From positions 62,001 to 126,000 of the forward strand of contig NZ_CANLZV010000009.1 of the NCBI RefSeq assembly GCF_947495665.1: a DNA stretch of 64,000 nucleotides, read 5' to 3'. The position numbers and the translations under genes were made by a program. The notes under the pieces are model-generated. The model was given only the letters and a program-made list of their open reading frames with translations. It made no database searches and had not been told where the DNA came from. The DNA is from an uncultured Sunxiuqinia sp. GTDB lineage: Bacteria; Bacteroidota; Bacteroidia; Bacteroidales; Prolixibacteraceae. Positions 14,725 to 38,746 of the stretch are shown here, in pieces. The number at the start of each line of letters is the position of its first letter. Position 1 is the stretch's first letter.

Positions 14725-14737
14725 TGGCACAAAAATA

Positions 14738-16136: not shown

Positions 16137-16200
16137 TAAAGATAGAGAGTTGATTCTCTGTTTAAATGGACTATTTTTTCATTTTATGAACTAAATTATC
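16137..16200 (-). promoter_or_regulatory. RhaT promoter with AraC-type direct-repeat operator (site A)
   Basis: TGGACTATTTTTTC (16167-16180) and TGAACTAAATTATC (16187-16200) form a direct repeat 20 bp apart. Twenty-two bases toward the gene lies a minus-strand -7-like box TATCTTTA (16137-16144). The same arrangement recurs at 24790-24855 and 35003-35067. An operator abutting the -33 region is typical of AraC-family activators. The repeat is seen; the regulator is inferred. Confidence 0.6.
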
Positions 16201-16278
16201 AAATTCAATTTTTACAAAAATATACTTTAGTCATAACATGGTTGCTCTATGCCTTTCATGAAATAATATTCAGGAATT

Positions 16279-19260
16279 CTATCGATTTAAATCTTTGTTT
16301 AACAAACGAAAGTTCAAATGGCCACTAAACCTCTTCTCTACCTTTGAGGGCAACACAAAATTACCCCAGCCCAAATCGCTATAGGAAACATGATGCAAAA
16401 TCTTCATAACAACCTCTCCTTTGGTTGAAACAGAGCAACGCGCAGCCAATTCACCATCTGCAAAAACATGCAACCCATAGTTATCCTCATTATTGTAAAC
16501 TTGGTATTCGGTAAGATTCAGTCGGGTAGTTCTGAAGTCATGAGTACTCATTCCCATTTCAGTATCTATGCCACTTTTCTGAAATAAGTAAAAGTCTTTT
16601 CCATCCTGTTCCCACTCTTTTTCAGGTTTAAACCGATATTTCTCCTTTGAAAAATTTGAATTGCGAACAGCTGTTCCAACTGCTCTCCCTATGTGGTTTT
16701 CCGGATATATGGACCATTGGGCATTGCGGTTCCAAGATATACGGTTCATATCTGAACTCAACAAAAAATTTATACCAGCTTCGTGTACCGCTTCGGGCAT
16801 ATCTTCAATCGTATACTTAACTTCCACTTCACCGTTAGGTAGAACCTCAAAAAGATAGGCTACCTTCATGTCATCCATTTGTCCTTTAATGCGAGCCGTA
16901 AAACGATTTTCATTGTGTTCATATGTGAAGTTGATTAAACTCCAGTTTTCTTTCAGAGGAATTAATTGGCTTCCCTTGCCCTGATTGACACCTTTAGCCC
17001 AAGAGGGAACGACTACATTTAAAAAAGGGCCACCTTTGAGAACCTCTACTCCATCAATTATCCCTTTTTTTATCAGCCCGCTTTGCTTATCCAGACAATA
17101 GGAAAAACCTTTTCCTGAAACCGTTAAATCAGCTTCATTTTCCACCACATTCAAAACACTATTTGGTAAATTTTCAAACTTCGCCTCAACCGGTTCTTGA
17201 AAGGAAATGCGATACATATCAACCAAGCGCTCACCAAGCCAAAATTTCAATAAAGTGCCATTCTGAGCAAGATTGGCCGGTACAATTAATTTTCCGCGTT
17301 GGTGAGGTGCAATGTCGGGCATTTCTATCACCTTCGAATTACATTCGAGTTTTAATTCGCTGAGATTTGTATGATCAAATCGATTGTGGACTGCTATCTG
17401 CAAGTCGGTTCCTTCCATACTTTTTGTGAATCTGGTACTTTCAAGTTTTACCGGAGTGTGTGCTTTTTTCGTATGCCAGAATTCGGGTTTCTTTCTTCTC
17501 CAAGGATCAATAAACCCCCACTGTCCATATCCTACCACCGTATCCGGCAGCATAAACGTTTCATCAATCATGCCCCAAATAGCTCCACCAAGGCCTCCGT
17601 CTGAATCAAAACAGCCTGTCCACATTTCTTCCATGCTCTGCCCCCAAAAGTCGCGAACTCCCGGATCTTCTTTCAAGGTTTGTACATTATAACAAGCCAC
17701 ATGTGCCCACTCATCATGAAGTGCCGGCATTCCATCTACACCAAACTTGTGGCTAGATATCCCCATATTATCTTTTAGTTCACCATTGTAGTTCACATAG
17801 TGCACACTAGCAATATCATATACTTTCTTTTTTGTTGTACCCGGATAACTAAACATGATAGGACGAGTTGTATCATGTGCAACAACATAATCATAGGAAA
17901 TACCAAAGTTCTCCCCATATCGGTTCTCATTTCCGATAGACCAGATAACGACCGACGAATGGTTACGGTCGCGTTCAATCATTTCAGCTAGCTGACCCAA
18001 GTATCTGTCTGTATAATCAGGATCATCCTTACTTTCATCTTCTTTACTATATGGCTCTGCCTTCCAGGTTTTCACAAAACACACGGCGGTTTCGTCTTCC
18101 ACATAAATGCCATACTTGTCACAATATTCCAGAAACTTCCTGCTTGGAGGATAATGTGAAGTACGTATGTAATTCATATTGGCTTCCTTAGCCAGCAGTA
18201 CATCTTTCAAGTCATACTCCTCATTCGTACTCCTTCCCATCAATGGGTGGATATCGTGACGACATGCTCCTCTTAGTTTAACAGGCATTCCATTGACCAG
18301 CATCTTGTTACCTTTTATCTCAACTTTCCTAAATCCTATTTTACGCTCAATACATTCTGTGACCGTTCCTTTTTGCTTCAATTTTATTGTTAGGCTGTAC
18401 AGGTATGGTTTTTCAGCCGTCCATTTATGGGGATTTTCAACTGGCTGAGCCACCTGAATATTACTTGTGCTCTTGTCTAGTTGCTCTGTCTGTTCAAATA
18501 ACAAAATGTTATTTTCATCGCGTAATTCAAAAACCAACTTGCACTTTGCGCTTTTGTTGATTCCAACATTTAGCTTAAGCGTGGCATCTTCATAGTAATT
18601 GTCCAGTTCTGTTTCTATTTCCAGCCTACTTACATGTATTTTCGGCAAGGCAATTAATTCCACATCACGAAGAATTCCGCCAATGCAATGTTTGGCATAT
18701 CCCGAACCAAAAGAGATGTCATCCACTGGATCCAAGAATGCCACAATTAGCTCTACAGGCTCATCTTGCTTGACAAAAGGGGTTAGATCGCATTCCCATG
18801 ATGTAAATCCTCCCCAGTGTTCACGCAAATAGGTTCCATTCACCCACACTTTAGCGTGACTATATACTCCGTTAAACCGCAATACAGTCATCTTTCCCGC
18901 AAAGTCAGATGGAATCGTGAACACTTTCTTGTATGCATACCAGACATCGTGCTCGATCAAAAAACCCTGCATAGCAGGCTCTCCAGGAACTTGTATATTT
19001 TCCCATTCCTCTAAACTTAACTGTTCTCCATTCTCTAGATTCAACTGTTTCCCTGAAAATTGCCATTGACCATTTAAACTTATAACAGGTGCTTGTACTC
19101 CGGCAACCTGTGCTGGCAGTTCGCATAATAGGTTGCTATATTTTTCAAAAGAATTGATTACACTTATCTCTTGCGAATGAGCTCCCACTGAGTAATAAAC
19201 AAAAAGGCAGAGTACAAATGCCTGCCTCAATTTTTCTAGTTTTATAGATCGAACTTTCAT
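16279..19260 (-). CDS. GH2 beta-galactosidase-like glycosidase, secreted (copy 1)
   Basis: A 993-residue GH2 enzyme with an N-terminal signal sequence ending near SVGAHSQ. The order is jelly-roll sugar-binding domain (about 50-210), Ig-like domain (to about 320), TIM barrel (about 325-610) and a LacZ-type C-terminal small-chain domain (from about 700). The acid/base is Glu445 in IWSIGNEN and the nucleophile Glu517 in HDEWAH. It should cut terminal beta-linked galactose or a related residue in the periplasm. It follows susD after a hairpin, and precedes rhaT. It has GNE where its two locus-mates have ANE. Confidence 0.92.
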   Translation of the reverse strand: MKVRSIKLEKLRQAFVLCLFVYYSVGAHSQEISVINSFEKYSNLLCELPAQVAGVQAPVISLNGQWQFSGKQLNLENGEQLSLEEWENIQVPGEPAMQGFLIEHDVWYAYKKVFTIPSDFAGKMTVLRFNGVYSHAKVWVNGTYLREHWGGFTSWECDLTPFVKQDEPVELIVAFLDPVDDISFGSGYAKHCIGGILRDVELIALPKIHVSRLEIETELDNYYEDATLKLNVGINKSAKCKLVFELRDENNILLFEQTEQLDKSTSNIQVAQPVENPHKWTAEKPYLYSLTIKLKQKGTVTECIERKIGFRKVEIKGNKMLVNGMPVKLRGACRHDIHPLMGRSTNEEYDLKDVLLAKEANMNYIRTSHYPPSRKFLEYCDKYGIYVEDETAVCFVKTWKAEPYSKEDESKDDPDYTDRYLGQLAEMIERDRNHSSVVIWSIGNENRYGENFGISYDYVVAHDTTRPIMFSYPGTTKKKVYDIASVHYVNYNGELKDNMGISSHKFGVDGMPALHDEWAHVACYNVQTLKEDPGVRDFWGQSMEEMWTGCFDSDGGLGGAIWGMIDETFMLPDTVVGYGQWGFIDPWRRKKPEFWHTKKAHTPVKLESTRFTKSMEGTDLQIAVHNRFDHTNLSELKLECNSKVIEMPDIAPHQRGKLIVPANLAQNGTLLKFWLGERLVDMYRISFQEPVEAKFENLPNSVLNVVENEADLTVSGKGFSYCLDKQSGLIKKGIIDGVEVLKGGPFLNVVVPSWAKGVNQGKGSQLIPLKENWSLINFTYEHNENRFTARIKGQMDDMKVAYLFEVLPNGEVEVKYTIEDMPEAVHEAGINFLLSSDMNRISWNRNAQWSIYPENHIGRAVGTAVRNSNFSKEKYRFKPEKEWEQDGKDFYLFQKSGIDTEMGMSTHDFRTTRLNLTEYQVYNNEDNYGLHVFADGELAARCSVSTKGEVVMKILHHVSYSDLGWGNFVLPSKVEKRFSGHLNFRLLNKDLNR

Positions 19261-19329
19261 TATTTTTAAATATCTAAATAATACTGTACTCGAAAAAATA
19301 GACTTTCTCCCATAAATTAAAATAATTTT

Positions 19330-19380
19330 AAAGAGGTGGTTATTTCAAATAGCTTTTGAAATAACTACCTCTTTCTTTTT
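19330..19380. terminator. Hairpin after susD
   Basis: A 19-bp stem with a single G-T pair (19330-19348 with 19356-19374, loop of seven). It lies between the susD stop and the next GH2 gene. The better T-run (CTTTTT, 19374-19379) is on the plus strand; on the minus strand the stem is followed by AAAATTATTTT. It may separate or attenuate expression of the GH2 gene from susC/susD. Confidence 0.6.
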
Positions 19381-19398
19381 ATTAATCCCTTAATATTA

Positions 19399-21417
19399 TT
19401 AATCCTGGGCTCCAGTATCAGCCTCTTTCAGCCAATTCGGATTTTGATAAATAGGCGATCCATCTACACTTGAATCGACAGATGATTGTAAGAAATGTGA
19501 TACAGCAATTGGCTCCAAATAATGGGCCTTGTGCCATTTATATCCATTGTAAACACGGTTATTGGTGTTAGCTCTGTGAGGTTGTAAATATATACTGCCT
19601 CCTGCTTCCGGTGGTGAAGAAACATTATTGTCATTGCTAGCCGAGCCGTATTTCAAATACGATACTCCATTTTCCTTATACCACTCCTGCATAGTCCCCC
19701 ACAGTTTAAATCCTTCAACAATATATGGAGTCACTTCTAACTGATCAAATGAACGCCAACGTTTAAGATCCTCATAACGGAAGCCTTCTGAAAAAAGCTC
19801 ACTCCGCCTTTCCCGTCGAATATTATAAAGTATCTTGTCGTTGAGCAGCTGACCTCCTGAGTAAGCAGCCCAATCATTAGCAGCCTCTTGAAAGATATCT
19901 GTAGCATCAATTGTTACGGAAGGATCTTCAGGCAGATGAGCCCGAGAGCGTAACTCCTTCCAATACTCCAATGCATCAATATCCAATGTTCCATTTTTCT
20001 CATATGAAGCTTCAATATAGTTCAAATAAGCCTCTGCAGCCCTGAAAACAATATGACCAATACCACTTCCTCCATTTAAGGCATGAGCTGCATCTGGATT
20101 CATAAACTTCCTAAGAGCATAACCTGTAGTCATTCGCCCCTCTCGACCATTGTAGGCTCCAGTTATCCATGGATAATCTTCAATAGGATTCAATTCGTGA
20201 GTTCCATCACCCCGGTTAATCCATAGGTTATATTGCCCAGGCTCTTTAAGAAATAAATACAAACGATTATCTCTATTTTGGCGTACTGAACCAATCTCAT
20301 CATCCTGATAAGTAAGACTACTAGAATATATCGGCTTTCCATCTTCCATTAAAAAATTTTCAACTGCCGAACGAGTTACGCCAACCTGACCATTATCTTC
20401 TTGAAACCCTCGTGAAATTTGATTGGTTACTACTCCTAATTTGAATTCGCGCCAAAGAACCACTTCTGCATAACCAGCCATATCTACATCCCCAAACATC
20501 TCAAAATATCGATTTTGACCAATTGGATATGGCACTGGAGCATTGTCTGGCTGCGGAACACCACCATCATTAGGAGTTAAAGCATATTTATCAGCAACAA
20601 TCTTAGCTGACTTCATCGCTTCACCCAAGAAAAAATCAATTTCACGATCAATATTCCCTGATGGGAATTGAATATCTTCAGATTCACCAGGCCACCCAGG
20701 ACCTCCGGGAACACGAGCAGTACCTTTATGATATTTAAGCCAAGTTCCCTCATATAACGCTACCCTGGACCGAAAATGATGCGCAACATCCTTATTTATT
20801 TGTGTTTTATTGACGACAACAGGAGATGCGTCTGCCAGGTATGTTAATGCCGTATCAATATTGGCAAGGATAAAACGTGCCACCATATTTCGAGGTTGTC
20901 GCTTTGTGGCTCCACTTAATATTTCTTTGTCATCTGGCAATTCTCTTGTAATAATAGGAAAATCACCTAACGCCTGTAGTTTACTAAAATAAACACAAGC
21001 CCTTAGAAAATACATTTCACCGATATGATGACGTATTGCTACTTCATCTCCAGATATTTCCCGGGCTTCGTATTTTGGAATTACTCTTTGTAAGAAGTAA
21101 TTGCATTGCCGTATTTCACCGAAGGACCAACTTCCCCCAGATGACGGTACTTTATATTCTCCGGGCACAAAAACATTGCTTGCTCCAGGGGAAGCCTGAT
21201 TATCGGTATTATTGTCTGTCGGAATCCAACCATTTGGGTATGAATTTGGAATATACGTATATTTATCTATTACGTAGGCTGATAAATGACTCACGTCGGT
21301 TAGGTAGGATTCAGGAGTAACTTGGCTTATTGGTTCTTTATCTAAAAGATCATCGCAAGCAGTAAACAGCAAGAGCACAATGCTTAATCCTGTTATATAT
21401 TTTATGATTGTTTTCAT
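19399..21417 (-). CDS. RagB/SusD-family outer-membrane lipoprotein (large)
   Basis: A 672-residue SusD homologue, longer than most (about 500-600). The lipobox ends at Cys21 (LLLFTACDD). Family features are KEPISQVTPESYL at the start, GEMYFLRACVYFSKLQALGDFPI in the TPR core, and IVFRAAEAYLNYIEASYEK with RRERRSELFSEGFRYEDLKRW near the end. It pairs with the SusC gene 24 bases upstream and binds the glycan at the cell surface. It belongs to the AraC-type-controlled locus and has no sigma/FecR pair. The size suggests a larger or branched ligand, but this is only a guess. Confidence 0.94.
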   Translation of the reverse strand: MKTIIKYITGLSIVLLLFTACDDLLDKEPISQVTPESYLTDVSHLSAYVIDKYTYIPNSYPNGWIPTDNNTDNQASPGASNVFVPGEYKVPSSGGSWSFGEIRQCNYFLQRVIPKYEAREISGDEVAIRHHIGEMYFLRACVYFSKLQALGDFPIITRELPDDKEILSGATKRQPRNMVARFILANIDTALTYLADASPVVVNKTQINKDVAHHFRSRVALYEGTWLKYHKGTARVPGGPGWPGESEDIQFPSGNIDREIDFFLGEAMKSAKIVADKYALTPNDGGVPQPDNAPVPYPIGQNRYFEMFGDVDMAGYAEVVLWREFKLGVVTNQISRGFQEDNGQVGVTRSAVENFLMEDGKPIYSSSLTYQDDEIGSVRQNRDNRLYLFLKEPGQYNLWINRGDGTHELNPIEDYPWITGAYNGREGRMTTGYALRKFMNPDAAHALNGGSGIGHIVFRAAEAYLNYIEASYEKNGTLDIDALEYWKELRSRAHLPEDPSVTIDATDIFQEAANDWAAYSGGQLLNDKILYNIRRERRSELFSEGFRYEDLKRWRSFDQLEVTPYIVEGFKLWGTMQEWYKENGVSYLKYGSASNDNNVSSPPEAGGSIYLQPHRANTNNRVYNGYKWHKAHYLEPIAVSHFLQSSVDSSVDGSPIYQNPNWLKEADTGAQD

Positions 21418-21441
21418 ATAATTCCTTTTTATTAATTAATT

Positions 21442-24400
21442 CTATAAGCTTAGGCTTAAACCTAAAGAGTATGTCCTGAAAATAGGATATGAATTCCGTT
21501 TATCCGTTCGAATCAGTTCAGGATCATAAATCTTAGTTAATCCAGTAAAAGTAAATAGGTTTTCGCCTGAAGCATACACTCTTAAATTACCTATCCCTAG
21601 CGAATTGACTAAGACCTTAGGAAGTGTATACCCTACAGTTAAGTTTTTCAATCTCACATAAGAAGCGTCTAGAATATACTTTGTTTGAATCTCCCGGTTC
21701 CGATTATCCATCAGAGGTCGCCCATAGTAAGGATCCAGATTCTGTCCCAAGGGGTGATTCTCATCAGCTCTAAAATAATCCAGTTGATCATCCAGCACTA
21801 TGACTCCCCACTGCCAGCCACCAGGGAAAAACATTTGTGAAGAAGTTGCATAATCTCTTTTTAAGACTCCTTGAAAGAATGCTCTTATATCAAACCCCTT
21901 ATAACTAGCATTCAACGTAGTTCCAAAACGAAATCTTGGCGTATTGTTACCAATAATTTTACGATCACCCGGATCATTTAAAGTATTGGCACCTGAGCTA
22001 ACTTTATTATCTCCATTCAGGTCTTTATACATGATATCGCCCGCGGTCAAGTTTGTTAAGCCAAACTGTCCTCCTTCGTTTAATGATGCTAGATGGGCAT
22101 CCATTTCCTCTTGCGTCTTCGCAATACCGACCGTTTCATACCCCCAAATTTCACCTAGCTTCTGTCCCTCTCGATAGGTTGACAAGCTTCTACTTTCGTT
22201 GGGATAACGGGTAATTTCAGTTTGAGAATCGGACAATACCACAGAAACTCCATACCTGAGTCTATTCCCTCTTAAATCCAAACCATCATTCCATGCAACG
22301 GATAACTCCCAACCATAAGTTTTTAAGTCCGTATTATTTTGTTTTGGAACTGCTGTTCCCAAAGTATTTGGAAGCTCTGGTGCCGGGCCGACCATATCTA
22401 AGGTATTCCGCACGAAATAATCAAAAGAACCACTCAATCGGCTGTTCAATAAAGCGAAATCTAATCCGTAGTTATAAGACTCTACTTTTTCCCATGTAAG
22501 ACTACTGCTAATCAAGCCAGGAGCATAAGTAGTGTTGGGTTGACTGCCTGAGACTAACCATCCTCCATTTTGAACACCGACAGGCTGCGTTACATATGTT
22601 GGATACCACACCTCAGTATTTTGATTCCCCAACGAACCATAAGAAGCCCTAACCTTTAACTGATCCACAATATCAACATTCCAAAATTTCTCATTGGCAA
22701 CATTCCACCCTAAAGAGAAAGAGGGCAGCAACAACCATCTGCTACCTTGTCTGAATCGAGAAGAACCATCATATCGGAGATTGGCTTCAAAAAGGTAACG
22801 ATTGTCATAGTTATAATTTAAGCGTCCAAAAAAGCCACCAACAGCCCAGTCATAGTAATTCCCATTTAATGAAGGAGGTATTTCTTCTCCTCGGGAGTTA
22901 ATACCAGTAGTCGTACTAATAGACTGAACATCTGGAGAGATACTTCCTGTACGCTGCGCCATCAAATCTCGCTGAGAAAAGTTTTCGAACTGCCCTCCAG
23001 CCATCAATTTAAACTTATGAGCTTTGATTTCCATCTCATAATCAGAATATACATCAAGGTTGTAATAATCTGATTTAAATGCATACTCATTAACATTACT
23101 TTCGGTGCCTCCACTTCCATAATAAGGATTCCCATTCTTATCATAGTTATAAAAAGGCTTTTGATACCACTGCCTAAATTGATTCGATGATTTGTAGCTA
23201 CCACTACCTACAATCTGCCATCCTTCAAGTGGTTGAAGTGTAAATTTTAATTGATGTGTATTTACATCTACTATCTGGTTATGCTCCCCACCATCTCTCA
23301 ACTTCAAGATTGGACTTGCTGCATTATCAAACAGTTGTCCATTGTCATCATAAATCGGCATAGTAGGCCATCCCTGACGCAAAATATTATCCCAAATACC
23401 ATCATTTAAAAAAGTAGGCCGTTGGTAATCTTTTCTTGAAAAACGATTAATAAATTCCACATCAAGATAAGAAGTCAGAGACGCATTTATTTTACCAGTA
23501 ATATTATACCGTTGGTAAGTATCAGTATTAATTTTAAGAAGTCCTTCTTCTTCGATAAATCCTCCTGAAATATAATACTGCATTTGTTCGCTACCTCCCT
23601 TTATGCTGAGGTTATGCTCCTGAGAAAACGATTGATCATCAAAAACCCCCTTTAACCAGTTACTATTGGCATGCCCGGCATTATAGCCATTTACCCAACG
23701 ACCTTGGCTATTAGCCAGCATAGGTACATCTTCGCCATTCTTGTATCTTATAATTCGATCCAACCATTCGGAACTGAAATAAGGTGCGTTTCCGCTATTA
23801 ACACTATTGTCATTAAGGACATAAGCAAAAGTTTCAGAGTCTGAAACACTGGGCCAGTGATTAGGCGAACCGCTTCTAAAACTATTATTATAATTAACGT
23901 CGATCTTTCCCTTCTCTCCCTTTTTTGTAGTAACCAGGATTACTCCAAAAGGAGCTCGGGATCCATAGATAGAAGATGATGCGGCATCTTTCAAAACTGA
24001 AATATTTTCAATGTCCTGTGGATTAATCAAAGATAAGTCTCCTTCTACTCCATCTATCAACACCAATGGAGAGCCATTGGATCCTTCTCCCAGAGTAGTT
24101 ACTCCCCGAATGTTAATCGAAGCTGTTTCACCAATATTTCCTGAACTCCTTGTTATATTAAGTCCTGGTGCTACTCCCTGCAACATGTCAACAGCATCTT
24201 TTGCCGGACGCTCTTCAAGTGCTTCGCTTTTAATAACTGCAACTGAACCGGTTAAATTTTCCTTTTTTTGCACACCATAACCAACAGCAACGACTTCTTC
24301 AAGTCCTATGGCATCATTTTCCAATTTTACATTAATCACCTTGCTCGTTCCAATTGGTATTTCCTGTGTTTTCATACCAACAAATGAGAACACAATCACT

Positions 24401-24642: not shown

Positions 24643-24649
24643 AAGTTTG
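24642..24649 (+). promoter_or_regulatory. -7 box of the candidate antisense RNA
   Basis: TAAGTTTG matches TAnnTTTG on the plus strand and overlaps the susC start codon. No clear TTG is seen at -33. Part of the match may come from conserved sequence around the susC start. Confidence 0.3.
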
Positions 24650-24655
24650 AATGTT

Positions 24656-24759
24656 TTAAGTTTTATAATAGCCATTTCATCGGCTGTTAACTTATCTGCA
24701 TGATGTTGGTAGCATCGTGCTTATTACCGGCAAATGTTTGCTCATTTGCCGGTTTTTTT
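24656..24759 (+). ncRNA. Candidate cis-antisense small RNA opposite the susC leader
   Basis: The plus strand shows hairpin GCATGATG/CATCGTGC (24698-24705 with 24713-24720, one G-U), then a perfect 11-bp hairpin ACCGGCAAATG/CATTTGCCGGT (24726-24736 with 24743-24753) running into seven Ts (24753-24759). That is a classical intrinsic terminator, but every gene for more than 9 kb on either side is on the minus strand. A transcript from the -7 box at 24642 would be about 104 nt and fully complementary to the predicted susC 5' leader. Antisense RNAs of this kind are known in Bacteroides polysaccharide loci. The 5' end is estimated. Confidence 0.5.
24743..24759 (+). terminator. Plus-strand intrinsic terminator between minus-strand genes
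   Basis: Right arm and T-run of the perfect 11-bp hairpin starting at 24726. The T-run is only on the plus strand, so it cannot end the minus-strand genes around it. Confidence 0.7.
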
Positions 24760-24789
24760 ATTCTTAGTATAGTTAGGTGTTTGTTGGTT

Positions 24790-24855
24790 TAAATATAAAG
24801 GCTTTCCATTTTTGTATTGATGAACTCTATTTCCACATTTATGAACTATATTATC
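24790..24855 (-). promoter_or_regulatory. susC promoter with AraC-type direct-repeat operator (site B)
   Basis: TGAACTCTATTTCC (24821-24834) and TGAACTATATTATC (24842-24855) repeat at 21 bp. Twenty-three bases toward susC lies the minus-strand -7-like box TATATTTA (24790-24797). Transcription from near 24783 would give a leader of about 140 bases, which spans the candidate antisense RNA. Confidence 0.6.
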
Positions 24856-26056: not shown

Positions 26057-26845
26057 CTAACTATCCTGCATTAACGCCGACCGGCCTCCATCCAAAAGAT
26101 AGGTTGTACCCGTTGCGAAAGCTGCAAAGTCACTTGCCAGAAAAGCACACCATGCTCCAACTTCTTCTGGGGTACCAAGTTTTCCCGCCGGATGCAAATC
26201 AATTGTTCGCTGACGTTCAGCAGCTGCGTCCGGGAACGAGTTAAACCATTTATCGTTTCCGGGAGTATCGATAAAGCCAGGAGCTACTCCCACAACCCGC
26301 ACAGAGGGTCCCCATTCAATTGCCATGGCACGAACCAAACCAGTAAGTGCCGTTTTGGTCACATTGTATGGAAAACAACCAGGAATTGACGAGTAAGCAT
26401 GATTGGAAGTCATAACGACAAAAACTCCTGAAGAACTTGCTTCTAAATGTTTCCGGCTTGCTTTTGCCAAGCGCCAATGCGAAGCCAGGTTTAGTTCATG
26501 ATTGTAAGTCCAATCTTCTTCGGAGCACTGCGAAGCTCCTTTAAATACGTTTACCCCGGCATTGGAAACCACTAGATCGATCTGCTTAAATTCACGGGCA
26601 ACACGTTCAACAAAAGAGGCAATCTGCTCTTTTGAGGTGACATCAACCGCTTGGTAAAAAGCTTTCCTCCCAAAAGCTTCAACACTCTTGATAAAATCTT
26701 TGACACTATCCTGATCTTCAGATGTCCTTGCACAACCAGCCACATGACAGCCAGCTTCAGCCAGCACTTTTGCGACTCCTGCACCAATACCACTGGAAAC
26801 ACCTGTTACAATAGCTACTTTATCGGTTAGATTAATCCCTAACAT
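26057..26845 (-). CDS. Short-chain dehydrogenase/reductase
   Basis: A 262-residue SDR. The cofactor motif TGVSSGIG is at residues 14-21, NAG in VVSNAGVN near 95, the catalytic Ser in MTSNHAYSS and YxxxK in PYNVTK around 160. The C-terminal LASDFAAFATGTTYLLDGG is typical. The ATG at 26845 gives the normal SDR length; the frame stays open upstream to a TTG at 26953 but that extension has no SDR character. In this operon (dehydratase, aldolase-like protein, lactonase) it may oxidise a 2-keto-3-deoxy sugar acid, as in the oxidative fucose or rhamnose routes. This role is inferred from context. Confidence 0.9.
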   Translation of the reverse strand: MLGINLTDKVAIVTGVSSGIGAGVAKVLAEAGCHVAGCARTSEDQDSVKDFIKSVEAFGRKAFYQAVDVTSKEQIASFVERVAREFKQIDLVVSNAGVNVFKGASQCSEEDWTYNHELNLASHWRLAKASRKHLEASSSGVFVVMTSNHAYSSIPGCFPYNVTKTALTGLVRAMAIEWGPSVRVVGVAPGFIDTPGNDKWFNSFPDAAAERQRTIDLHPAGKLGTPEEVGAWCAFLASDFAAFATGTTYLLDGGRSALMQDS

Positions 26846-26984
26846 TTTTATTGGTTTTATCTGTTTATATTTTTTAAAGACACTTTTGTTAGAGCCAAGA
26901 CAATAGATTCTTGGACAACTTCGAACTAACTTAAGGCTTAAAAACTCTGTCAATATACTTTAGTCACTTCGTACTTTCCTATTC

Positions 26985-28145
26985 CTAAATATAAAAACCT
27001 TTTTTAGCGATACGGATACCCGGATGCTTCTCCATTTCTTGCTCAACCAAATCGACACCTAAACCCGGCCGGTCAGATAATACCAGATAACCTTGATCGA
27101 CCTCAATGGCATGATCAATTACTTCATCTCGCCAAGGGACATCGCAATAAATATACTCCTGCCGGAAGAAATTGGGAACAGCCGCACAAACATGAGCACT
27201 TGCCAATGTTGACAGGGGCCCATTAGGGTTATGCGGTGCCAACAATACATTGTAGGTTTCGGCCATGGTTGCCATACGCTTCATTTCCGAAGGACCACCA
27301 CAACGAGTGATATCCGGCATAATAACATCAACCACCTGTTTCTCCAGCAGATCCCGAATTCCGTGACGTGTATAATGACGCTCTCCCACGCAAATCGAAA
27401 CTTTGGGGTCAATGCGTTCACGTAAAGCTTTTAAGGTATTTGCATTTTCAGGTCCCGCAGGTTCTTCGTACCAGGTAATGTTCAACTGAGCCAATCGTTC
27501 AGCCATCGTTACTGCTGTTTTGAAATTAAGCATTGCATGTGTTTCTATCATTAAGTCAGCATCGGGTCCAATCGCTTCGCGAACAGCCTTGCTTACCTCA
27601 AAAGCTCGATTTTGTTGCTCTTGACTCAAGCCCAAGTCCGTATTTAGGTCTTCACCATACAAATAGTTGACATGCGCAAAAGGATCAAATTTAACGCCCT
27701 TAAAGCCAGAGCCCATAACCTTTCGAGCCTGCATCGCATAGTCCTCGGCATTGTGTCCACCACCTGTAAACCAGTAGTTGGCGTACAGCCTAATTTTTGT
27801 GCGAAACGCCCCTCCCAGCAACTCATACATCGGGACTCCCAGTTTCTTTGCTTTTAAATCGAGCAAGGCCATGTCAATACCCGAAATAGCACACATGCTG
27901 GCACCAAAAGGACCAACCCAATTCAAATCGCGATATAATTTGGTCCAGATAAAGTCAGTCCGCATCGGATCCAAGCCGATAATACGTTTTCCTGCTTCAA
28001 CTGCAGCAGCTTCGATCATTTGACTTCCGGGCCAGTTTGTCGCTTCGCCAACCCCAGTAATTCCTTCGTCGGTATAAATTTTCAATAAAGTCCAGTTGTA
28101 CTTTACACCTTCAACCAACCATACTTTAACATCTGTAATCTTCAT
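26985..28145 (-). CDS. Enolase-superfamily sugar-acid dehydratase
   Basis: A 386-residue mandelate-racemase/muconate-lactonising-type enzyme. The capping domain is MKITDVKVWLVEG...LGGAFRTKI. Barrel residues are visible: VKFDPF, the first metal site in LMIETHAML, the second Glu in WYEEPAGPEN and the third in CVGERHYTR. The His of LAPHNPNGPLS pairs with Asp of MPDITRCGG. This is the pattern of acid-sugar dehydratases (galactonate/gluconate-dehydratase-like), which turn an aldonate into a 2-keto-3-deoxy acid. It is shorter than the roughly 440-residue L-fuconate dehydratases of Xanthomonas, so fuconate is not assured; galactonate, rhamnonate or others are possible. Confidence 0.88.
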   Translation of the reverse strand: MKITDVKVWLVEGVKYNWTLLKIYTDEGITGVGEATNWPGSQMIEAAAVEAGKRIIGLDPMRTDFIWTKLYRDLNWVGPFGASMCAISGIDMALLDLKAKKLGVPMYELLGGAFRTKIRLYANYWFTGGGHNAEDYAMQARKVMGSGFKGVKFDPFAHVNYLYGEDLNTDLGLSQEQQNRAFEVSKAVREAIGPDADLMIETHAMLNFKTAVTMAERLAQLNITWYEEPAGPENANTLKALRERIDPKVSICVGERHYTRHGIRDLLEKQVVDVIMPDITRCGGPSEMKRMATMAETYNVLLAPHNPNGPLSTLASAHVCAAVPNFFRQEYIYCDVPWRDEVIDHAIEVDQGYLVLSDRPGLGVDLVEQEMEKHPGIRIAKKGFYI

Positions 28146-28262
28146 TCATTTCAAATTAGAGCCAAGATACAAGAACCAGGAAACAGAATTTTCAGACGAC
28201 CATATCCGAACCACTGATTTTCAGATCCTCTACTCATGGCTATTTCTTATTTACACATTGCC

Positions 28263-28961
28263 TTACATGATTCCGTATTTGTCCCAGGCTTCAACAGCAC
28301 TCATCCCTTCCTGAATGGCTTTTAATACCGTTTTCTCCCCTCGAGCCTTTTCCAAAGAGCGCGCAAATACTTCCTTCTCAACCAACTGGGGGACCACACA
28401 AACGCCATCAATATCACCAACAATAATATCACCTGGATTAATACGAACCCCGTTCATTTCGATAGGCACCCGAAAGTCAATCACTTTACCGCGAGGTGCT
28501 TGATCCTGAGAATAGGGCCCATAAGAAAACACCGGTAAATCAACATCATAAATCCCCTTTGTATCGCGCGAATAGCCATTGACAACAGCTCCAGTGCCAC
28601 CACACATTTTGATACGGGTAAGCATCAGTTCGCCAACTAAAGCATAGGCAGGAGAAGAACCAGAGCAGATATAAACCTCGCCCGGCTTGATATCATCCAA
28701 GGCTTCCAACATCAAGCCAAATGGTTTATCCATTAAGGGGTTTTGTGATCCGGGGCTCAATTCTTCAAAACAGTCAGCTTCCAAAACAGTCATCGCCCGT
28801 CCAACCAGCAACATCTCCTCTTTCAGCGGTCTGATTTGAGGAGGTAAAAACTGATGCTGAAGTCCCATTTTATCCATAATATCGCCAACTACAGCGGTAT
28901 AGAGTTCCTTACGGATAAAACCGAAAAGCTCTTTGTCGTCTTTCCAATCGTTTGCAGTCAT
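28263..28961 (-). CDS. RraA-like class II pyruvate aldolase
   Basis: A 232-residue member of the RraA/4-hydroxy-4-methyl-2-oxoglutarate aldolase family. The core GTGAVVNGYSRDTKGI holds the Arg-Asp pair that binds substrate and metal, and GDIIVGDIDGVCVVP is the second family signature. Some members regulate RNase E, but this longer form belongs to the metal-dependent aldolase/decarboxylase branch. Directly upstream of a sugar-acid dehydratase, it could split the 2-keto-3-deoxy acid into pyruvate and an aldehyde (lactaldehyde if the sugar is fucose or rhamnose). It starts six bases after the GH2 stop, so it is co-transcribed. Confidence 0.85.
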   Translation of the reverse strand: MTANDWKDDKELFGFIRKELYTAVVGDIMDKMGLQHQFLPPQIRPLKEEMLLVGRAMTVLEADCFEELSPGSQNPLMDKPFGLMLEALDDIKPGEVYICSGSSPAYALVGELMLTRIKMCGGTGAVVNGYSRDTKGIYDVDLPVFSYGPYSQDQAPRGKVIDFRVPIEMNGVRINPGDIIVGDIDGVCVVPQLVEKEVFARSLEKARGEKTVLKAIQEGMSAVEAWDKYGIM

Positions 28962-28966
28962 CTTAT

Positions 28967-31876
28967 TTATTCGTTAGTAATTAATAGTTTTATTTGTCCA
29001 CTTAGCTTCTGGCCTCTGGTTAACGGAATATCGTACAAAGCTGCATGAGAACTAAATCCCCGCAGAAACCGTTCTGACCCCGGATTATCGTACCCCGCCA
29101 CCAGCCAATGAATGTTGCCATTCTCAAGCCAACTACGTACATGCTGGCTACCGTCCGATTTTAGCTGAATGGTACTTGCACCTTTAGCAGCTAAGGCAGC
29201 TTGAAATACATTGCGCTTGGTTGAGCGGAAATCGTTACTTCCATAGCGCGTTTGATCCTGATGATAAGCCCAGGAAGGCTTTTTCGAAGGACCTGCTAAT
29301 CCACAGCGCTCATCGTTGTAAAAAAGTTTCGCTTCACCTTTCAGCCGTCCAATATGATCTTCGGGGTAAACGGTCCACAGTCCTTTTTTCTCCCAACTCA
29401 GGGTATTGAATGTTTCAGGCAATGAAAATGCCACACCCCATTGACGGAAATTCTCATTTTTCAGCATGCTGTAATCGTACGAAACAGCTATGGAACCATT
29501 AGCCTGAACAGAGATCTCCATCGTTCCTGTTGCCTCATCGTATCCTTCAGTCAGAACAATTTTAAGCTGCTTCTCTCCTTCTTCTACGTCCACAGAATGA
29601 ATGCTACGATTTGATGCAGCGGGTGAATACAGCGTATAATCCGGTGTTTCCTTGGTCATCTGTGTATCGCCTTTATTATTGGCAGAAACCAGCATTAATA
29701 TTGGCCAATCATTTAACACATCGTGTCCTTTTGAGTCTGAAATACGGAATCCTTCAGGGCCAAACTCAACCTTTAACTTTTTACTTTCAGCAATTTTTTG
29801 TTTTCCCTTTCGGCTCCACTGCAAACGATCCTCATTTGTTTTAGCAATCTCCATTTCAGGCATCGAAAAATCAAAAGCATATTCATCAACGGCCACTTTA
29901 CTGTCTTTGTAAACAGTCAACCTCAATTTCCCTAGTTCCTTGTATGTGAAAGGAAGCGTTGCTTCGACTGATCCGCCAGGCTTGGCCTCAACTCGTAGTT
30001 GTCCTTTGGCTTGATTATTACTCCAAGTAATCCGGCATTCATCCAAATTTGAAAAGAAATAGCGATTCTCCAATGTAAGCTTCACGGGCTCATCATTCAG
30101 TCCACTTTCAAGTTTGATTTTTACCGGTGAATAGATTTTCTTCATATGCCAATATTCCGGTTTTGGCCTTCTCCAGCCATCGACCGGCCCCCAGGTTCCG
30201 TAGCCAACAGCATGTCCTGATGGTAAAAAGAAGGTATCATCAATACCAGCCCATAGTGCGCCACCCAGCACGCCTTTTGCAGCATACATTTTCTCCCACA
30301 TGTGATACAAAATATCTCCCCAGAAATCGCGAATTCCAGGGTCGGTCATCAGCTCAAATCGGTTGTAGGCATTCAAGTGTACGTATTCATCAAAAGTAAT
30401 TGGACGCTTGTGGTTGCGATATTTATCGGGACCTCCAGGCCCTGGATAGTGATGATTGGCAAGCTCCAGATATCCGCCATCTCCATCAGGTCCGTATTGA
30501 CTAAAAATACGAGGTCGTGAAGGATCAGCAGCCTTTACTAAGTCAGCGGCTTCTTTAAAAAGTTCATCAAAATCATACGACTCATTCGCAATTGACCAAT
30601 GCAAAACCGATGGATGCGACTTATTCAATTCAACCATTTCGAGGATGGGCTGCACGATGGCTTCAAAGTAATTTGAATTATTTACCGGCTTTTTGCCAGC
30701 CCAGCAAAATGGGCCTTCCACCTCAACAAACATTCCCAGCTCATCGCATGCATCCAACAATTTTTGATTTGGAGGGTAGTGCGAAGTACGGATGTAATTG
30801 ACATTTCCTTCTCTAAACAGTTTAACATCCTCAAACCACTGGTTTCCATTCAACGAACGTCCCCGCAAAGGATCAACTTCGTGCCGACAGACACCGCGTA
30901 ATTTTATCGGATGGTTGTTTACAAAAACCTGGTTCTCGCGAACTTCAATTTGTCGAAAACCAAATCGTCGTGACACTTTTGTTTGTTCTACGCCATCCAC
31001 AAACAGTGAACAATGCAGCACATAAAGGTTGGGATGTTCCGGATCCCATTTCTGCGGTTTTCGAACATTCACGCTTGTTTCAATCTTTTTTGTTCCTGCT
31101 TCCAGCGAAACAGACAGTTGCTTGTCGCCTTCAAAAGCAACGTGGTTTCCAGACAGATCGGTAAGTTCAAACTTTAGAACGGCATCTTTACTTCTGTTGC
31201 TTTCATTAGACAACAAAAGCTGGGTTTGAAGAAGAGCATCTTCGTATGTCTCATCAAATGTTGTCCGGACATGCAAGGATGCTACATTCACTTCGGGAAG
31301 GGCCATCAAATAAATTGGACGGGAAATACCTCCCAAGGGATGAACCGCATACTTTGAACCAGAGGACAGGCTATCGGCCACACTTTCGCTACGAACAGCC
31401 AACGCAATTGTATTATTTCCTTTTTTTACCGCATCGGTAACATCCAACTCAAAAGGGGTAAATCCGCCTAAGTGTCCTCCAACTTTTTTTCCATTCATCC
31501 AAATGGTACATTCACTGTAAACAGCTTCACATTTCAGCTTAATACGAGCTTTCTTCCACGATTCAGGAAGCTGAAACTCCCGGTAGTAACCGGCATACTG
31601 TCCGGCATCTACTTCAAAGCCTTGCATCACCCATTCGCCCGGGACCTCAATATTTTCCCAGTTTGTGCTACCTATATTTTTCCAAAACGAGTCTGCTGGA
31701 CTTGGATTAAAGTTCCAGGTTCCATTCAGGTCAAGTTGTACCCCATCAATCCCCTTAACTTTTTCGGGAATGGGGCTCCAACGGATCGTTTCCAACTTTT
31801 GAGGATCAAAAGTAAGCTGAGCCTGGATGCTTACTGCAAACACCAGGAATATCATTAATAAACTAAGTTTCTTCAT
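28967..31876 (-). CDS. GH2 beta-galactosidase-like glycosidase, secreted (copy 2)
   Basis: A 969-residue GH2 enzyme with a clear signal peptide (MKKLSLLMIFLVFAVSIQAQ). The domain order is that of copy 1: sugar-binding jelly roll, Ig-like domain, TIM barrel and LacZ-like C-terminal domain (FRISDSKGHDVLNDWPILML). The acid/base is Glu432 in HWSIANES and the nucleophile Glu497 in FDEYVH. It has ANE where LacZ has GNE. It lies 80 bases after copy 3 and is followed without a gap by the aldolase-like gene. It probably releases terminal beta-linked sugars in the periplasm; the exact sugar is unknown. Confidence 0.92.
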   Translation of the reverse strand: MKKLSLLMIFLVFAVSIQAQLTFDPQKLETIRWSPIPEKVKGIDGVQLDLNGTWNFNPSPADSFWKNIGSTNWENIEVPGEWVMQGFEVDAGQYAGYYREFQLPESWKKARIKLKCEAVYSECTIWMNGKKVGGHLGGFTPFELDVTDAVKKGNNTIALAVRSESVADSLSSGSKYAVHPLGGISRPIYLMALPEVNVASLHVRTTFDETYEDALLQTQLLLSNESNRSKDAVLKFELTDLSGNHVAFEGDKQLSVSLEAGTKKIETSVNVRKPQKWDPEHPNLYVLHCSLFVDGVEQTKVSRRFGFRQIEVRENQVFVNNHPIKLRGVCRHEVDPLRGRSLNGNQWFEDVKLFREGNVNYIRTSHYPPNQKLLDACDELGMFVEVEGPFCWAGKKPVNNSNYFEAIVQPILEMVELNKSHPSVLHWSIANESYDFDELFKEAADLVKAADPSRPRIFSQYGPDGDGGYLELANHHYPGPGGPDKYRNHKRPITFDEYVHLNAYNRFELMTDPGIRDFWGDILYHMWEKMYAAKGVLGGALWAGIDDTFFLPSGHAVGYGTWGPVDGWRRPKPEYWHMKKIYSPVKIKLESGLNDEPVKLTLENRYFFSNLDECRITWSNNQAKGQLRVEAKPGGSVEATLPFTYKELGKLRLTVYKDSKVAVDEYAFDFSMPEMEIAKTNEDRLQWSRKGKQKIAESKKLKVEFGPEGFRISDSKGHDVLNDWPILMLVSANNKGDTQMTKETPDYTLYSPAASNRSIHSVDVEEGEKQLKIVLTEGYDEATGTMEISVQANGSIAVSYDYSMLKNENFRQWGVAFSLPETFNTLSWEKKGLWTVYPEDHIGRLKGEAKLFYNDERCGLAGPSKKPSWAYHQDQTRYGSNDFRSTKRNVFQAALAAKGASTIQLKSDGSQHVRSWLENGNIHWLVAGYDNPGSERFLRGFSSHAALYDIPLTRGQKLSGQIKLLITNE

Positions 31877-31955
31877 TCGTTTTAAGGTTTAAGATTTATT
31901 CTTCAAAATTTCCAATCCTTACAAAACAGAGCCTTTGCCTTTGTCTGCGCCTTTC

Positions 31956-34883
31956 TTACTTTTTCACCAATTGCAGTTTTACGGAGGATTTGATCACACT
32001 TCCTTCTTCCAAAGGTTTACGCTCATCATTATAATGCCCGCTAAAAAACATGTCGCCTCCGCCGGTTGAATAACCAGCCACCAAGAAGCTGATGTTTTCA
32101 TTAGCATCGACAAAAGCTCTGAAAGCCTGTTGGCCATCGCCAACAACCGTTACCCCATAACCATCGGCATTGGATAAAGCAGCCCAGTAAATATTCTCAC
32201 GCGTTGCTCTAAAATCATTTGTTCCCAACGAAATGGCATCAAAACGCCAATCATTGACAGGCTTTTGCCCAAACGATTCAATTCGGAAAGCTTTGTCGCC
32301 AAAAGGCACCGTTTCACCATTCGTACGTCCAATATGATTCTCAGGATACCAACTCCAAAGTCCTTTCCGATACCACTGCAAATTCTTCGAACTTTCAGGA
32401 ACAGAGAAAACCAATCCCCATTGACGTGGATTCATTTTGATCATTGCCTTCATCTGGTAATCGACCACCACATCACCCCCGGCTGTAAACGCGTAGTTAA
32501 TCTCCCCTTCGGCCATCGTGTAGTTAAGCAAAACTTTAACTTTTACGGTATCGTTTACTTGCTCCCAGCTAACATCCTGTACCTTTTTCCTGGTACAAAG
32601 CGAATTATGAAGAGGAATTTCGAGGCTGTGTTCTGTATTGCAAGGGCCTGTTCTTAACTCGAGCATCATCAGTTCGGCTCCGCCATTGAGAACTTTTTCA
32701 TGATTGATTTGAGCACCATTAATCACTCCTTCTTTCAAGCCAAACTCCCACTCAAATCCGTCTCCGACTATTTGCAGACGATCATCCTCCTGAGACACTG
32801 CTAACCGGCGAGCTGACACTTTTTGGAAGGGAAAATCATCGCGTTTTACCTGGCCTATTTCGATAGCACAGGCTTCTACTTCAATATTCTGGGGAGAGAA
32901 CACACGAACTGTCATAATTTCCCCGTCTAACCGAGCATCTGTGGGCCTAATATCCAAGATGCCTGTTTTTTGTGGAGGTAAATCCATGTTTACCGTACCC
33001 GACTTATTGCCAACGCTCCAGGCAATGTGACACTCACTCAAGTTTGTAAAATCAAAGCGATTCTCTATTTGAAGACGAATAGGCTGTCCTTTTTCAGGAA
33101 CTTCAACATGCTGATTATGTATTTTTACCGGAGAATAGCTCTTTTTCATGTGATAGTATTCTGGCTTTTCGCGCCGCCAGCCATCAATTGGCCCCCACTC
33201 GCCATAACCAACAGCACGTCCGTCGGGCAAATAAAAAACATCGTCAATTCCTGACCAGATAGCACCACCAAGGCATCCCCGGCTTTTATACATACCTTCC
33301 CACATTTTTCTAAATCCGCGTCCCCAGGCATCACGCACGCCAGGGTCAGTAACGATTTCTTCCCGGTTATAGGTATTCAGGTGAGCATATTCGCCAAACA
33401 ATATCGGACGCTTAAAGTCTTCCACCACCTGAGGTCCATTAGGCCCCGGATAGTGCATGTTGGCCACTGGCATTTTCGTACTGCCGTAGTTGTTAAATCC
33501 GCCGTAAGCCTGATCATGAAAGGTAGCAGGTCGGGTCGGGTCTTGCTGCGCATAAAAATCGGCTAAGCGCGACCAATTCTCTGTCCACATGGATTCATTG
33601 GCCATTGACCAAATCAGAATACTTGGATGATTCCGGAAGAAAGCCAGATCGGCACGAGCAATTTGCTCAAAATAGTTGTACATGGCCGGATCCTTGGGAT
33701 CATTGTTTTTCCAGTGCTCATTAGCTCCATGGCCCACCCAGCAAATTGGGTTTTCCAGTTCGACATACAAGCCAAGACTATCACACAAAGCGATAAACTC
33801 TTCGGCTGGCGGGTAATGGGAAGTCCTGATGTAATTCACGTTTCCCTGCTTAAACAATTCAGCATCCTGCTTCCAAAGCTCAGGAGTTAAACTCCTGCCT
33901 CGCAATGGATGAACTTCGTGGCGATTCACCCCCTTCATTTTAATCGGAGTTCCGTTCACGAAAAGCTGATTGCCAACGACCTCAATTTGCCGAAAGCCTA
34001 TTTTCTTCACGATCGTTTCAACGCCAGCATCAGTTAAAACATCAAGCTCAAGCCGATATAAATTTGGATGTTCAGCATCCCATTTATCAGGCTTAGCTAC
34101 CGGAAATGAAAGGCTGATTGGCAACTCCTTTTCACCCTTCAGTTGGACGGTTTTACGAGAGTTTGCCAGTTCCACTTGCCTCCCATTGGGAGCGAACAGA
34201 CGAACATTCACATCAGCACGTTCAGCAGCAACAGCATTTTTTAATGTTGCATTAATTGCTAAATCAGCATGCTCATAATCTGGATCCAAAGGAGTGGTTA
34301 CAACCAAGTTGGCAAGGTATACTTCAGGAACGGCATACAAGTAAATCTTTCGTAGAATTCCTCCCAGTTGATGGGCAGCATATTGTGTTCCCGACATCAA
34401 GGTATCAGCCATTGTTTCTGCTGTAACAGCAATTGTCAGGCGATTTTCCTTTCCACGCTTGAGCAAAGAACTAACCTCCTTTTCAAACGCAACCATCGGG
34501 CCGGTATGGGAACCTGCACTTTGCCCATTAACAAATAAATCAGCCTTGCTAAAAACGGCATCGCAACGTAAAAAGATCTTGCAGTTTGTCCATGTCTTTG
34601 GAACAGCAAAAGATCGGGAATAAACTCCCGCCTTTCCAGGTTCTACCTCAAATCCCTGCATGGCCCATTCTCCAGGGACTTCAATCTGAGGCCATTTTTT
34701 TGCTCGATTGCCCACCTCAGCAAGCTTGCCGGAAAAGGAATCATTAAAATTCCATCGCCCGTTCAAGTCAACTTTCACAGGACTTACCGAGGAGTTTCGA
34801 GGAACAACAGCTAATTGTCCGTAACCCGACGGAGCAATTAGTAAGAACATGAATAAACAAATTAAAAAGTGTAGATTCTTCAT
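31956..34883 (-). CDS. GH2 beta-galactosidase-like glycosidase, secreted (copy 3)
   Basis: A 975-residue GH2 enzyme with a signal peptide (LICLFMFLLIAPSGYGQ). It has the same five-part layout as copies 1 and 2. The acid/base is Glu430 in IWSMANES and the nucleophile Glu498 in FGEYAH. It is the first gene of the large minus-strand operon and has the best-formed promoter/operator of the locus (35003-35067). It and copy 2 are closer to each other than to copy 1 in the active-site motifs (LNxYNR after the nucleophile), which suggests a local duplication followed by divergence. Confidence 0.92.
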   Translation of the reverse strand: MKNLHFLICLFMFLLIAPSGYGQLAVVPRNSSVSPVKVDLNGRWNFNDSFSGKLAEVGNRAKKWPQIEVPGEWAMQGFEVEPGKAGVYSRSFAVPKTWTNCKIFLRCDAVFSKADLFVNGQSAGSHTGPMVAFEKEVSSLLKRGKENRLTIAVTAETMADTLMSGTQYAAHQLGGILRKIYLYAVPEVYLANLVVTTPLDPDYEHADLAINATLKNAVAAERADVNVRLFAPNGRQVELANSRKTVQLKGEKELPISLSFPVAKPDKWDAEHPNLYRLELDVLTDAGVETIVKKIGFRQIEVVGNQLFVNGTPIKMKGVNRHEVHPLRGRSLTPELWKQDAELFKQGNVNYIRTSHYPPAEEFIALCDSLGLYVELENPICWVGHGANEHWKNNDPKDPAMYNYFEQIARADLAFFRNHPSILIWSMANESMWTENWSRLADFYAQQDPTRPATFHDQAYGGFNNYGSTKMPVANMHYPGPNGPQVVEDFKRPILFGEYAHLNTYNREEIVTDPGVRDAWGRGFRKMWEGMYKSRGCLGGAIWSGIDDVFYLPDGRAVGYGEWGPIDGWRREKPEYYHMKKSYSPVKIHNQHVEVPEKGQPIRLQIENRFDFTNLSECHIAWSVGNKSGTVNMDLPPQKTGILDIRPTDARLDGEIMTVRVFSPQNIEVEACAIEIGQVKRDDFPFQKVSARRLAVSQEDDRLQIVGDGFEWEFGLKEGVINGAQINHEKVLNGGAELMMLELRTGPCNTEHSLEIPLHNSLCTRKKVQDVSWEQVNDTVKVKVLLNYTMAEGEINYAFTAGGDVVVDYQMKAMIKMNPRQWGLVFSVPESSKNLQWYRKGLWSWYPENHIGRTNGETVPFGDKAFRIESFGQKPVNDWRFDAISLGTNDFRATRENIYWAALSNADGYGVTVVGDGQQAFRAFVDANENISFLVAGYSTGGGDMFFSGHYNDERKPLEEGSVIKSSVKLQLVKK

Positions 34884-35002
34884 CTCATTCTATATTATTA
34901 GTTGTAGTAGTAATCATTGCAATATACTTTTCAAATAGAGATTCGAAGAGAAAGTCTCATAGCCCTTTTTAATGAATGGAAATAAGCCTTTCCTGCACAG
35001 TT

Positions 35003-35067
35003 CAAAATTACACTGTTCAGCTTTAAAGTAGTTGAATCATTTTACCTGTAACTTGAACTATATTTTC
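35003..35067 (-). promoter_or_regulatory. GH2-operon promoter with AraC-type direct-repeat operator (site C)
   Basis: TGAATCATTTTACC (35033-35046) and TGAACTATATTTTC (35054-35067) repeat at 21 bp. A perfect minus-strand -7 box TAATTTTG lies at 35003-35010, exactly 22 bases from the operator. The divergent AraC gene begins 67 bases beyond it. The geometry is the same as at sites A and B. Confidence 0.65.
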
Positions 35068-35086
35068 AACAGATCAATAAATCCAG

Positions 35087-35094
35087 TAAATTTG
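35087..35094 (+). promoter_or_regulatory. -7 box of the AraC-family regulator gene
   Basis: TAAATTTG matches TAnnTTTG, 40 bases before the start codon. Operator site C ends 19 bases upstream, so its product may also control its own gene. Confidence 0.45.
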
Positions 35095-38733: not shown

Positions 38734-38746
38734 GAAATACTCAAAA

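Follow-up and report, generated by a model that had tools for sequence, protein, structure and literature searches.

The closest described systems are regulators of sugar and glycan genes with AraC-type DNA-binding domains. RhaR of Bacteroides, an AraC-family regulator of deoxy-sugar genes, is described with a predicted direct repeat of 21-bp periodicity (PMC3870299). BT3768 is named in PMC3878776, in which the hybrid two-component systems (HTCS) of Bacteroides polysaccharide utilization loci (PULs) are given predicted direct-repeat motifs averaging 21 bp. In the carrageenan PUL of Zobellia, the deletion of CgrA (ZGAL_3159) reduced growth on carrageenans, which its authors read as positive regulation (PMC5698469). 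In the present study, we analyzed a stretch of 64,000 nucleotides from an uncultured Sunxiuqinia sp. (hereafter the window), in which a gene for an AraC-type regulator, araC (35135-36022), adjoins a carbohydrate locus with tandem sites upstream of rhaT, susC, and an operon headed by the glycoside hydrolase gene GH2a (the GH2 operon). We consider it very probable from the sequence that the araC product is a sugar-responsive activator, which, as a dimer, binds at all three tandem operators and activates three transcripts in concert.

Three tandem sites in the window

All coordinates are those of the window. The 14-bp half-sites are written as they read along the + strand; all three target genes are encoded on the - strand. 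The half-sites are 16167-16180 TGGACTATTTTTTC and 16187-16200 TGAACTAAATTATC at rhaT (period 20), 24821-24834 TGAACTCTATTTCC and 24842-24855 TGAACTATATTATC at susC (period 21), and 35033-35046 TGAATCATTTTACC and 35054-35067 TGAACTATATTTTC at the GH2 operon (period 21). The operator as modelled has 36 bases, or 35 at rhaT. The predicted elements, scored with the models described below, are as follows.

16137..16144, - strand: -7 box TATCTTTA (rhaT promoter; 21 nt to the operator)
16166..16200, - strand: predicted rhaT operator, period 20; 18.3 bits, rank 3 in its own genome (11-site model)
24790..24797, - strand: -7 box TATATTTA (susC promoter; 22 nt to the operator)
24820..24855, - strand: predicted susC operator, period 21; 27.7 bits (11-site model), rank 2 in its own genome with the relatives-only model
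35003..35010, - strand: -7 box TAATTTTG (GH2 promoter; 21 nt to the operator)
35032..35067, - strand: predicted operator upstream of the GH2 operon, with paired half-sites at period 21; 28.1 bits (11-site model), rank 1 in its own genome with the relatives-only model

A first-pass annotation, made from the letters alone, had noted these half-sites with periods of 20, 21, and 21, a -7-like box 22 or 23 bases toward each gene, and a common direction. Upon re-reading, the letters, coordinates, and periods were as claimed, the three sites point one way relative to their targets, and the boxes lie 22 (rhaT), 23 (susC), and 22 (GH2) bases from the 14-mer, or 21, 22, and 21 from the edge of the operator.

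The exact TGAACTAWATTWTC occurs three times in the genome of 4,731,162 bases, every time at one of these promoters. When up to one mismatch was allowed, there were 10 matches including the three, versus 13 for a reversed-pattern control. A single half-site is exceptional only when exact, and looser matches are background. A loose single half-site was rejected as a signal, with 34 matches at up to three mismatches in the window versus 32.6 expected. The tandem criterion allowed up to two mismatches in the second half and up to five in the first, with 40 dinucleotide-preserving shuffles of the window as the control. Three tandem sites were detected in the window versus a mean of 0.05 per shuffle, and when a -7 box at 21-22 nt was also demanded, three sites remained versus none in all 40 shuffles. 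A composite score of the half-site matrix and the -7 box reached 8 or more at exactly the three sites within the window (26.4, 22.5, and 14.1, the last being rhaT; the region of the first site was used to fit the matrix). In 908 kb of background loci, nine places reached 8 and none reached 14.

Two profiles were used to scan genomes. The first was a sequence-only profile of 11 sites with the three window sites in its training set; 150 of 4142 first-look candidates were fully scored. The first-pass annotation had proposed such a scan, in which hits at random places might have been as frequent. Instead, the three sites ranked first to third in their own genome, with 28.1 (GH2), 27.7 (susC), and 18.3 bits (rhaT), and the next match had 13.0. 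The second profile was made of eight relatives' sites and none from the window. In the genome of the window, it placed the GH2a site first (E 9.2e-5) and the susC site second (E 0.039). In Sunxiuqinia elliptica, it also placed GH2a first, and the susC operator scored 16.9 bits. Untrained sites were recovered on the araC contig of genome G127 (23.9, 22.3, and 21.1 bits) and in both Carboxylicivirga genomes (19.4 and 21.6 bits). Of 12 hand-picked genomes in which the regulator has no close orthologue, four had a match at E<=0.05, the best with 19.8 bits. Partial operator-like matches of 18-19.8 bits were noted at G047 C1:4481729, G017 C1:3305802, and G036 C26:16921; these three genomes belong to one genus and lack a close orthologue.

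Conservation in relatives and the promoter layout

Close orthologues were collected from three sources. In a search of named genomes, seven of the best 80 of 225 loci had an AraC identity of 59-99%. Among 140 genomes of the family, six, including the genome of the window, had an AraC match at E<=1e-90. In 395 genomes drawn from the class, no close AraC orthologue at E<=1e-85 was found beyond that of the window. After duplicates were merged (G023 is L053; G170 and G164 are apparently L055 and L058), eight other genomes remained: S. elliptica, Puteibacter, a Marinilabiliaceae metagenome-assembled genome (MAG), a Prolixibacteraceae MAG, two Carboxylicivirga, a Bacteroidia MAG, and G127. The earlier reading had been staked on the conservation of the sites in related genomes. 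They are conserved: the tandem operator lies upstream of araC in all eight, the AraC products of which are 55-99% identical to that of the window.

The gene faced by the araC-side operator varies across genomes and is GH2a, susC, or rhaT; in several of these loci, susC was named from approximately 31-33% similarity to the window SusC. Carboxylicivirga has further operators before GH2a and before a sulfatase-fucosidase pair; others precede susC in Puteibacter and two susC genes of G127. In the 20 operators of the nine genomes, a box lies 21-22 nt toward the target in 19 (18 with TAnnTTT[GA] and one with TATCTATG, which has one mismatch), the exception being G127 C112:55189. These operators are not independent because the two Carboxylicivirga are close to each other, as are the window and S. 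elliptica. The sites, their spacing, orientation, and conservation, and their co-occurrence with this araC are visible in the DNA itself.

The comparison with S. elliptica is instructive at susC. Although its SusC is only 37% identical to that of the window, the preceding operator matches at every base. The stretch from the operator to susC differs from the window, yet a -7 box is found there at 22 nt. L133 (S. elliptica), 3553-8206, and the window, 16279-24675, have different susC-susD(-GH2c) cassettes between proteins that are 86-99% identical, an apparent exchange of the cassette just downstream of the operator. No operator was found within the 400 bases inspected at the S. elliptica rhaT. 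This gene could be read from the susC promoter because it starts 78 bases after the same-strand susD that follows this susC. In the window, GH2c stands between susD and rhaT, and rhaT has an operator of its own.

The layout was also examined beside more distant homologues. For the first set, the regions upstream of 62 AraC homologues with 29-100% identity were taken, each with at most 350 bases, and the -7 box was left out when the half-site matrix was fitted to them. Among the 58 regions that scored at least 8, 55 had the same orientation to araC and 55 had period 21. TAnnTTTG was exactly 21 nt away in 34 of the 58 and at any other distance in no more than one. The matrix was frozen for the held-out set of 80 further upstream regions, which came from 89 homologue matches without a locus (the other nine were three own-genome paralogues already in the first set and six that were left out). 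In this set, 27 regions scored 12 or more, versus 2 of 400 block-shuffled controls, and the other 53 scored below. All 27 had the same orientation and period 21 (other periods were penalized by 2), and TAnnTTTG was at 21 nt in 16 of them and at any other distance in one at most.

With a combined criterion (a score of at least 12, period 21, and the orientation found in the window), 79 of the 142 regions had a site, 52 in the first set and 27 in the held-out set. TAnnTTT was present at 21-22 nt in 57 of these sites, nnnnTTTG at 21 nt in nine more, and neither in 13; at eleven control distances, TAnnTTT was found in 0-1 of the 79. Related homologues in these counts are not independent. In the 57 boxed sites, conservation is higher in the distal than in the proximal half-site. 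The exceptions include a marine flavobacterial group (L065-L076), in which the operator is located 41-42 nt before araC, and CAnnTTTG, not TAnnTTTG, is at 21 nt in six of eight.

The probable regulator, its proposed mechanism, and alternative readings

Residues 180-290, which contain the helix-turn-helix (HTH) motifs, were screened for covariation with half-site bases (60 shuffles per pair; z uncorrected for relatedness). Residue 266 and base 4 of the distal half-site formed the strongest pair, with a z of 22.6 versus 13.1 for the next. The associations that followed were, in order, residues 263 and 261 with base 4 and residue 269 with base 5. In the 79 sites, Asn was paired with T in 37, Tyr with A in 28, and His with T in five, and nine had other combinations; 70 of 79 thus follow the pattern. 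An alignment to RamA places residue 266 within the recognition helix of the second HTH. In MarA, the positions of residues 266 and 269 face the DNA. In the araC product, the helix holds Tyr266 and Arg269 (alignment to RamA 7bef and others). On a tree of 73 rows built without the second HTH, residue 266 changes at least six times. The covariation appears to tie the protein to its site, although the independent changes are too few for significance. An association between residue 216 of the first HTH and half-site base 14 was rejected because it was present in raw counts, not on the tree. We take the second HTH to lie on the TAGTTCA end, nearest the promoter. In AraC at araI, the second HTH is likewise nearest the promoter. 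Residue 266 and base 4 are thus the amino acid and the base with which a test of specificity could start.

The following mechanism may be envisioned. The three transcripts would be GH2a-GH2b-RraA-dehydratase-short-chain dehydrogenase/reductase (SDR)-lactonase, susC-susD-GH2c, and rhaT. Each half-site would be taken by one DNA-binding domain, with the first HTH on the GATAA-like end and the second on the TAGTTCA end in the target sense. The distal half-site may serve as the strong anchor and the proximal half-site may be bound more weakly. By the -7/-33 promoter consensus taken from PMC7366714, the proximal half-site would end where the -33 element is expected, 21-22 nt before a TAnnTTTG-like -7 box. 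Since it ends at this position, we propose that the ligand-bound regulator substitutes for the -33 contact and holds RNA polymerase over the -7 core promoter. In this respect, we infer binding by the araC product, its dimeric state, the strengths of the half-sites, activation over repression, the limits of the operons, the sugar signal, and the transcript starts.

We further consider it somewhat probable that this arrangement is general. One-component cupin-AraC regulators of Bacteroidota would act at an oriented tandem operator of 36 bp, which, at exactly 21 nt from a TAnnTTTG box facing away from araC, replaces the -33 element, and residue 266 would set base 4 (Tyr with A, Asn or His with T). 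If this is true, the target promoters of very many glycan-locus regulators are readable from sequence alone. The layout rule (operator, 21 nt, -7 box), which was checked on held-out sequences, could assign targets to many unstudied AraC genes of Bacteroidota.

Several results weigh against these readings. The relatives-only profile misses the rhaT site, and the 18.3 bits of this site in the 11-site profile fall among the top scores obtained in genomes that lack a close orthologue. Therefore, the assignment of the rhaT operator rests on its place, its orientation, and its distance from the putative -7 box. In S. elliptica, C24:63553 (19.9 bits) and C17:41189 (18.6 bits) outscore the susC operator with the relatives-only profile. 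The places at C24:63553-63554 and C17:41189 (18.1 and 16.1 bits with the full model) were rejected as sites because they have no TAnnTTT box in the target direction. A match of 21.1 bits in G127 (C112:55189-55222) lacks a -7 box and points away from the neighboring sodium-solute symporter gene. No qualifying site was found in 63 of the 142 homologue upstream regions. On the tree, three independent pairs fell on well-supported branches, with a mean of 2.5 agreeing and none opposing, and the covariation is not significant after this correction. Furthermore, the proximal half-site does not follow residue 266.

Four other explanations were considered. A chance likeness of AT-rich promoter DNA, or a dispersed repeat, would fit the chance-level behavior of the loosened single half-site. 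However, we assign it a negligible probability because the tandem with its -7 box was absent from every shuffle, no composite match reached 14 in the background loci, and the operator is kept in eight other genomes. The binding of the sites by another AraC-type protein, a paralogue of 34-41% identity or an HTCS, with the neighboring araC not being the regulator, is very improbable. Three more genes of the same genome encode relatives at E<=1e-40, and the half-sites of the family resemble one another. Nevertheless, the operator and this araC co-occur in eight of the eight other genomes with a close orthologue, no match exceeds 19.8 bits in the 12 genomes without one, half-site base 4 tracks residue 266 of the adjacent protein, and no histidine-kinase fusion was found among the 18 proteins of the window that were scanned. 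It is unlikely, though less so, that the same protein at the same operators mainly represses by blocking polymerase at -33 until the sugar is present. The operator edge is at approximately -33, where a bound protein could exclude polymerase. However, a base-exact register between the operator and the box beside highly diverged regulators would fit an activator that touches polymerase and would be needless for a blocker, and the Bacteroides rhamnose regulator of the AraC type, with its predicted 21-bp direct repeat, is described as a positive regulator (PMC3870299).

The autoregulation of araC from the shared operator, which the first-pass annotation had added with the words "perhaps itself", appears doubtful to us. 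It would use the box TAAATTTG at 35087-35094, which faces araC at 19 nt from the operator; the facing box is present in the window and in S. elliptica, and 67 nt separate the end of the operator from the start codon of araC. However, TAnnTTTG occurs between the operator and araC in only seven of the 79 sites, at scattered distances and without a preferred position, and boxes inside the distal half-site (11 of 79) are close to the 7.3 expected from column composition. Among the operators listed for close orthologues, only those of the window and S. elliptica have such a box (TAAATTTG, gap 19), and this addition was not borne out. The wider claim, that genes for uptake, glycoside hydrolysis, and sugar acids form one AraC-type regulon, appears to be supported by conservation, the fixed promoter geometry, and protein-DNA covariation. 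What began as a short visual similarity now seems to be a well-supported regulon of one local regulator, which would join uptake, depolymerization, and sugar-acid catabolism.

The locus and its comparison with described systems

The genes of the locus are as follows.

15105..16103, - strand: RhaT-like sugar/proton symporter (PF06379 88.2 bits, cut-off 27)
16279..19260, - strand: GH2c glycoside hydrolase (PF02836)
19399..21417, - strand: susD-like lipoprotein (PF07980)
21442..24675, - strand: susC-like TonB-dependent transporter (PF07715, PF13715, PF00593)
25005..25928, - strand: SMP-30/gluconolactonase-like lactonase (PF08450 276 bits)
26057..26953, - strand: SDR dehydrogenase (PF13561 172 bits)
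26985..28145, - strand: enolase-superfamily sugar-acid dehydratase-like protein (PF13378, PF02746; top solved chain 2poz_A, "Putative dehydratase")
28263..28961, - strand: RraA-like aldolase family protein (PF03737 114.6 bits)
28967..31876, - strand: GH2b glycoside hydrolase (PF02836 and others)
31956..34883, - strand: GH2a glycoside hydrolase (PF02836, PF02837, PF00703)
35135..36022, + strand: araC, cupin-type AraC regulator, 295 aa (PF12833 79.9 bits, cut-off 33.6; PF02311 24.6 bits, cut-off 21.1)

The araC product carries the AraC double HTH (PF00165 49.3 bits versus a cut-off of 26.6) and matches solved AraC-type chains with E down to 2.8e-12. Its cupin domain is weak but above the cut-off in PF02311, and PF07883 (Cupin_2) is below its cut-off. 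The RhaT-like symporter is below the cut-offs of the NCBIfam RhaT models (best 236.8 versus 369). The gene content suggests that a glycan is taken up and cleaved and that a sugar is then oxidized to a sugar acid, with aldol cleavage as the next reaction. The solved chains that match the dehydratase-like and RraA-like proteins carry varied names and do not indicate a single sugar. Rfam at gathering thresholds gave no matches in window 10000-40000.

Some neighboring features were also noted. Two pairs of genes for an extracytoplasmic function (ECF) sigma factor and FecR flank the locus (window 13026-14730 and 38044-44792), one of which is followed by its own susC/susD pair. An alpha-L-fucosidase gene (window 36108-37160) adjoins araC and has no operator match upstream in the window; its 64% identical counterpart in Carboxylicivirga is directly behind a sulfatase gene that has an operator in front. 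A possible antisense RNA of approximately 105 nt covers the susC start (window 24642-24760, + strand), marked by a TAAGTTTG box (position 24642) and by a hairpin of -16.2 kcal/mol whose T-run is at 24753. The same pair of box and hairpin, 105-111 nt apart, is present in S. elliptica, which has a different susC, and at the second susC of G127, and at that distance in none of five other susC leaders examined. The candidate resembles the DonS family as outlined in PMC7366714.

As far as the cited sources describe it, the 21-bp direct repeat is already in print for related regulators, and the regulon is of a familiar sort. In PMC5061871, the legend of Fig. S3 states that HTCS sites and -7 boxes are marked. 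Neither a constant spacing between operator and -7 box for the AraC regulators of Bacteroidota nor a residue-266 rule was found in the open-licence literature of PubMed Central, a search that leaves subscription journals mostly outside and does not establish absence from print. What may be new is the layout rule.

The arrangement resembles that of E. coli AraC at araI1-I2 of araBAD, which is a direct repeat of 21-bp period with a strong distal and a weak proximal half-site. The proximal half is at -35/-33 there, and the second-HTH end is toward the promoter, which for the window is suggested by the covariation and half-site conservation. In contrast to araBAD, the core promoter here is of the Bacteroidota -7 type. 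The likeness to Bacteroides RhaR (the BT3768 group), judged by description, lies in an AraC-family regulator with a predicted direct repeat of 21-bp period. However, the genes annotated in the present locus include lactonase- and dehydratase-like ones but not an isomerase-kinase set. The HTCS of Bacteroides share the AraC-type HTH and predicted direct repeats with an average of 21 bp. Unlike them, the araC product is a one-component protein with a cupin-like sensor; only cupin and HTH domains were matched in it, with no kinase or receiver, which places it outside the HTCS. The CgrA locus is similar by description, with an AraC-family gene among marine glycan genes that include a drug/metabolite transporter (DMT) type sugar/H+ symporter and a sugar-acid cycloisomerase (PMC5698469).

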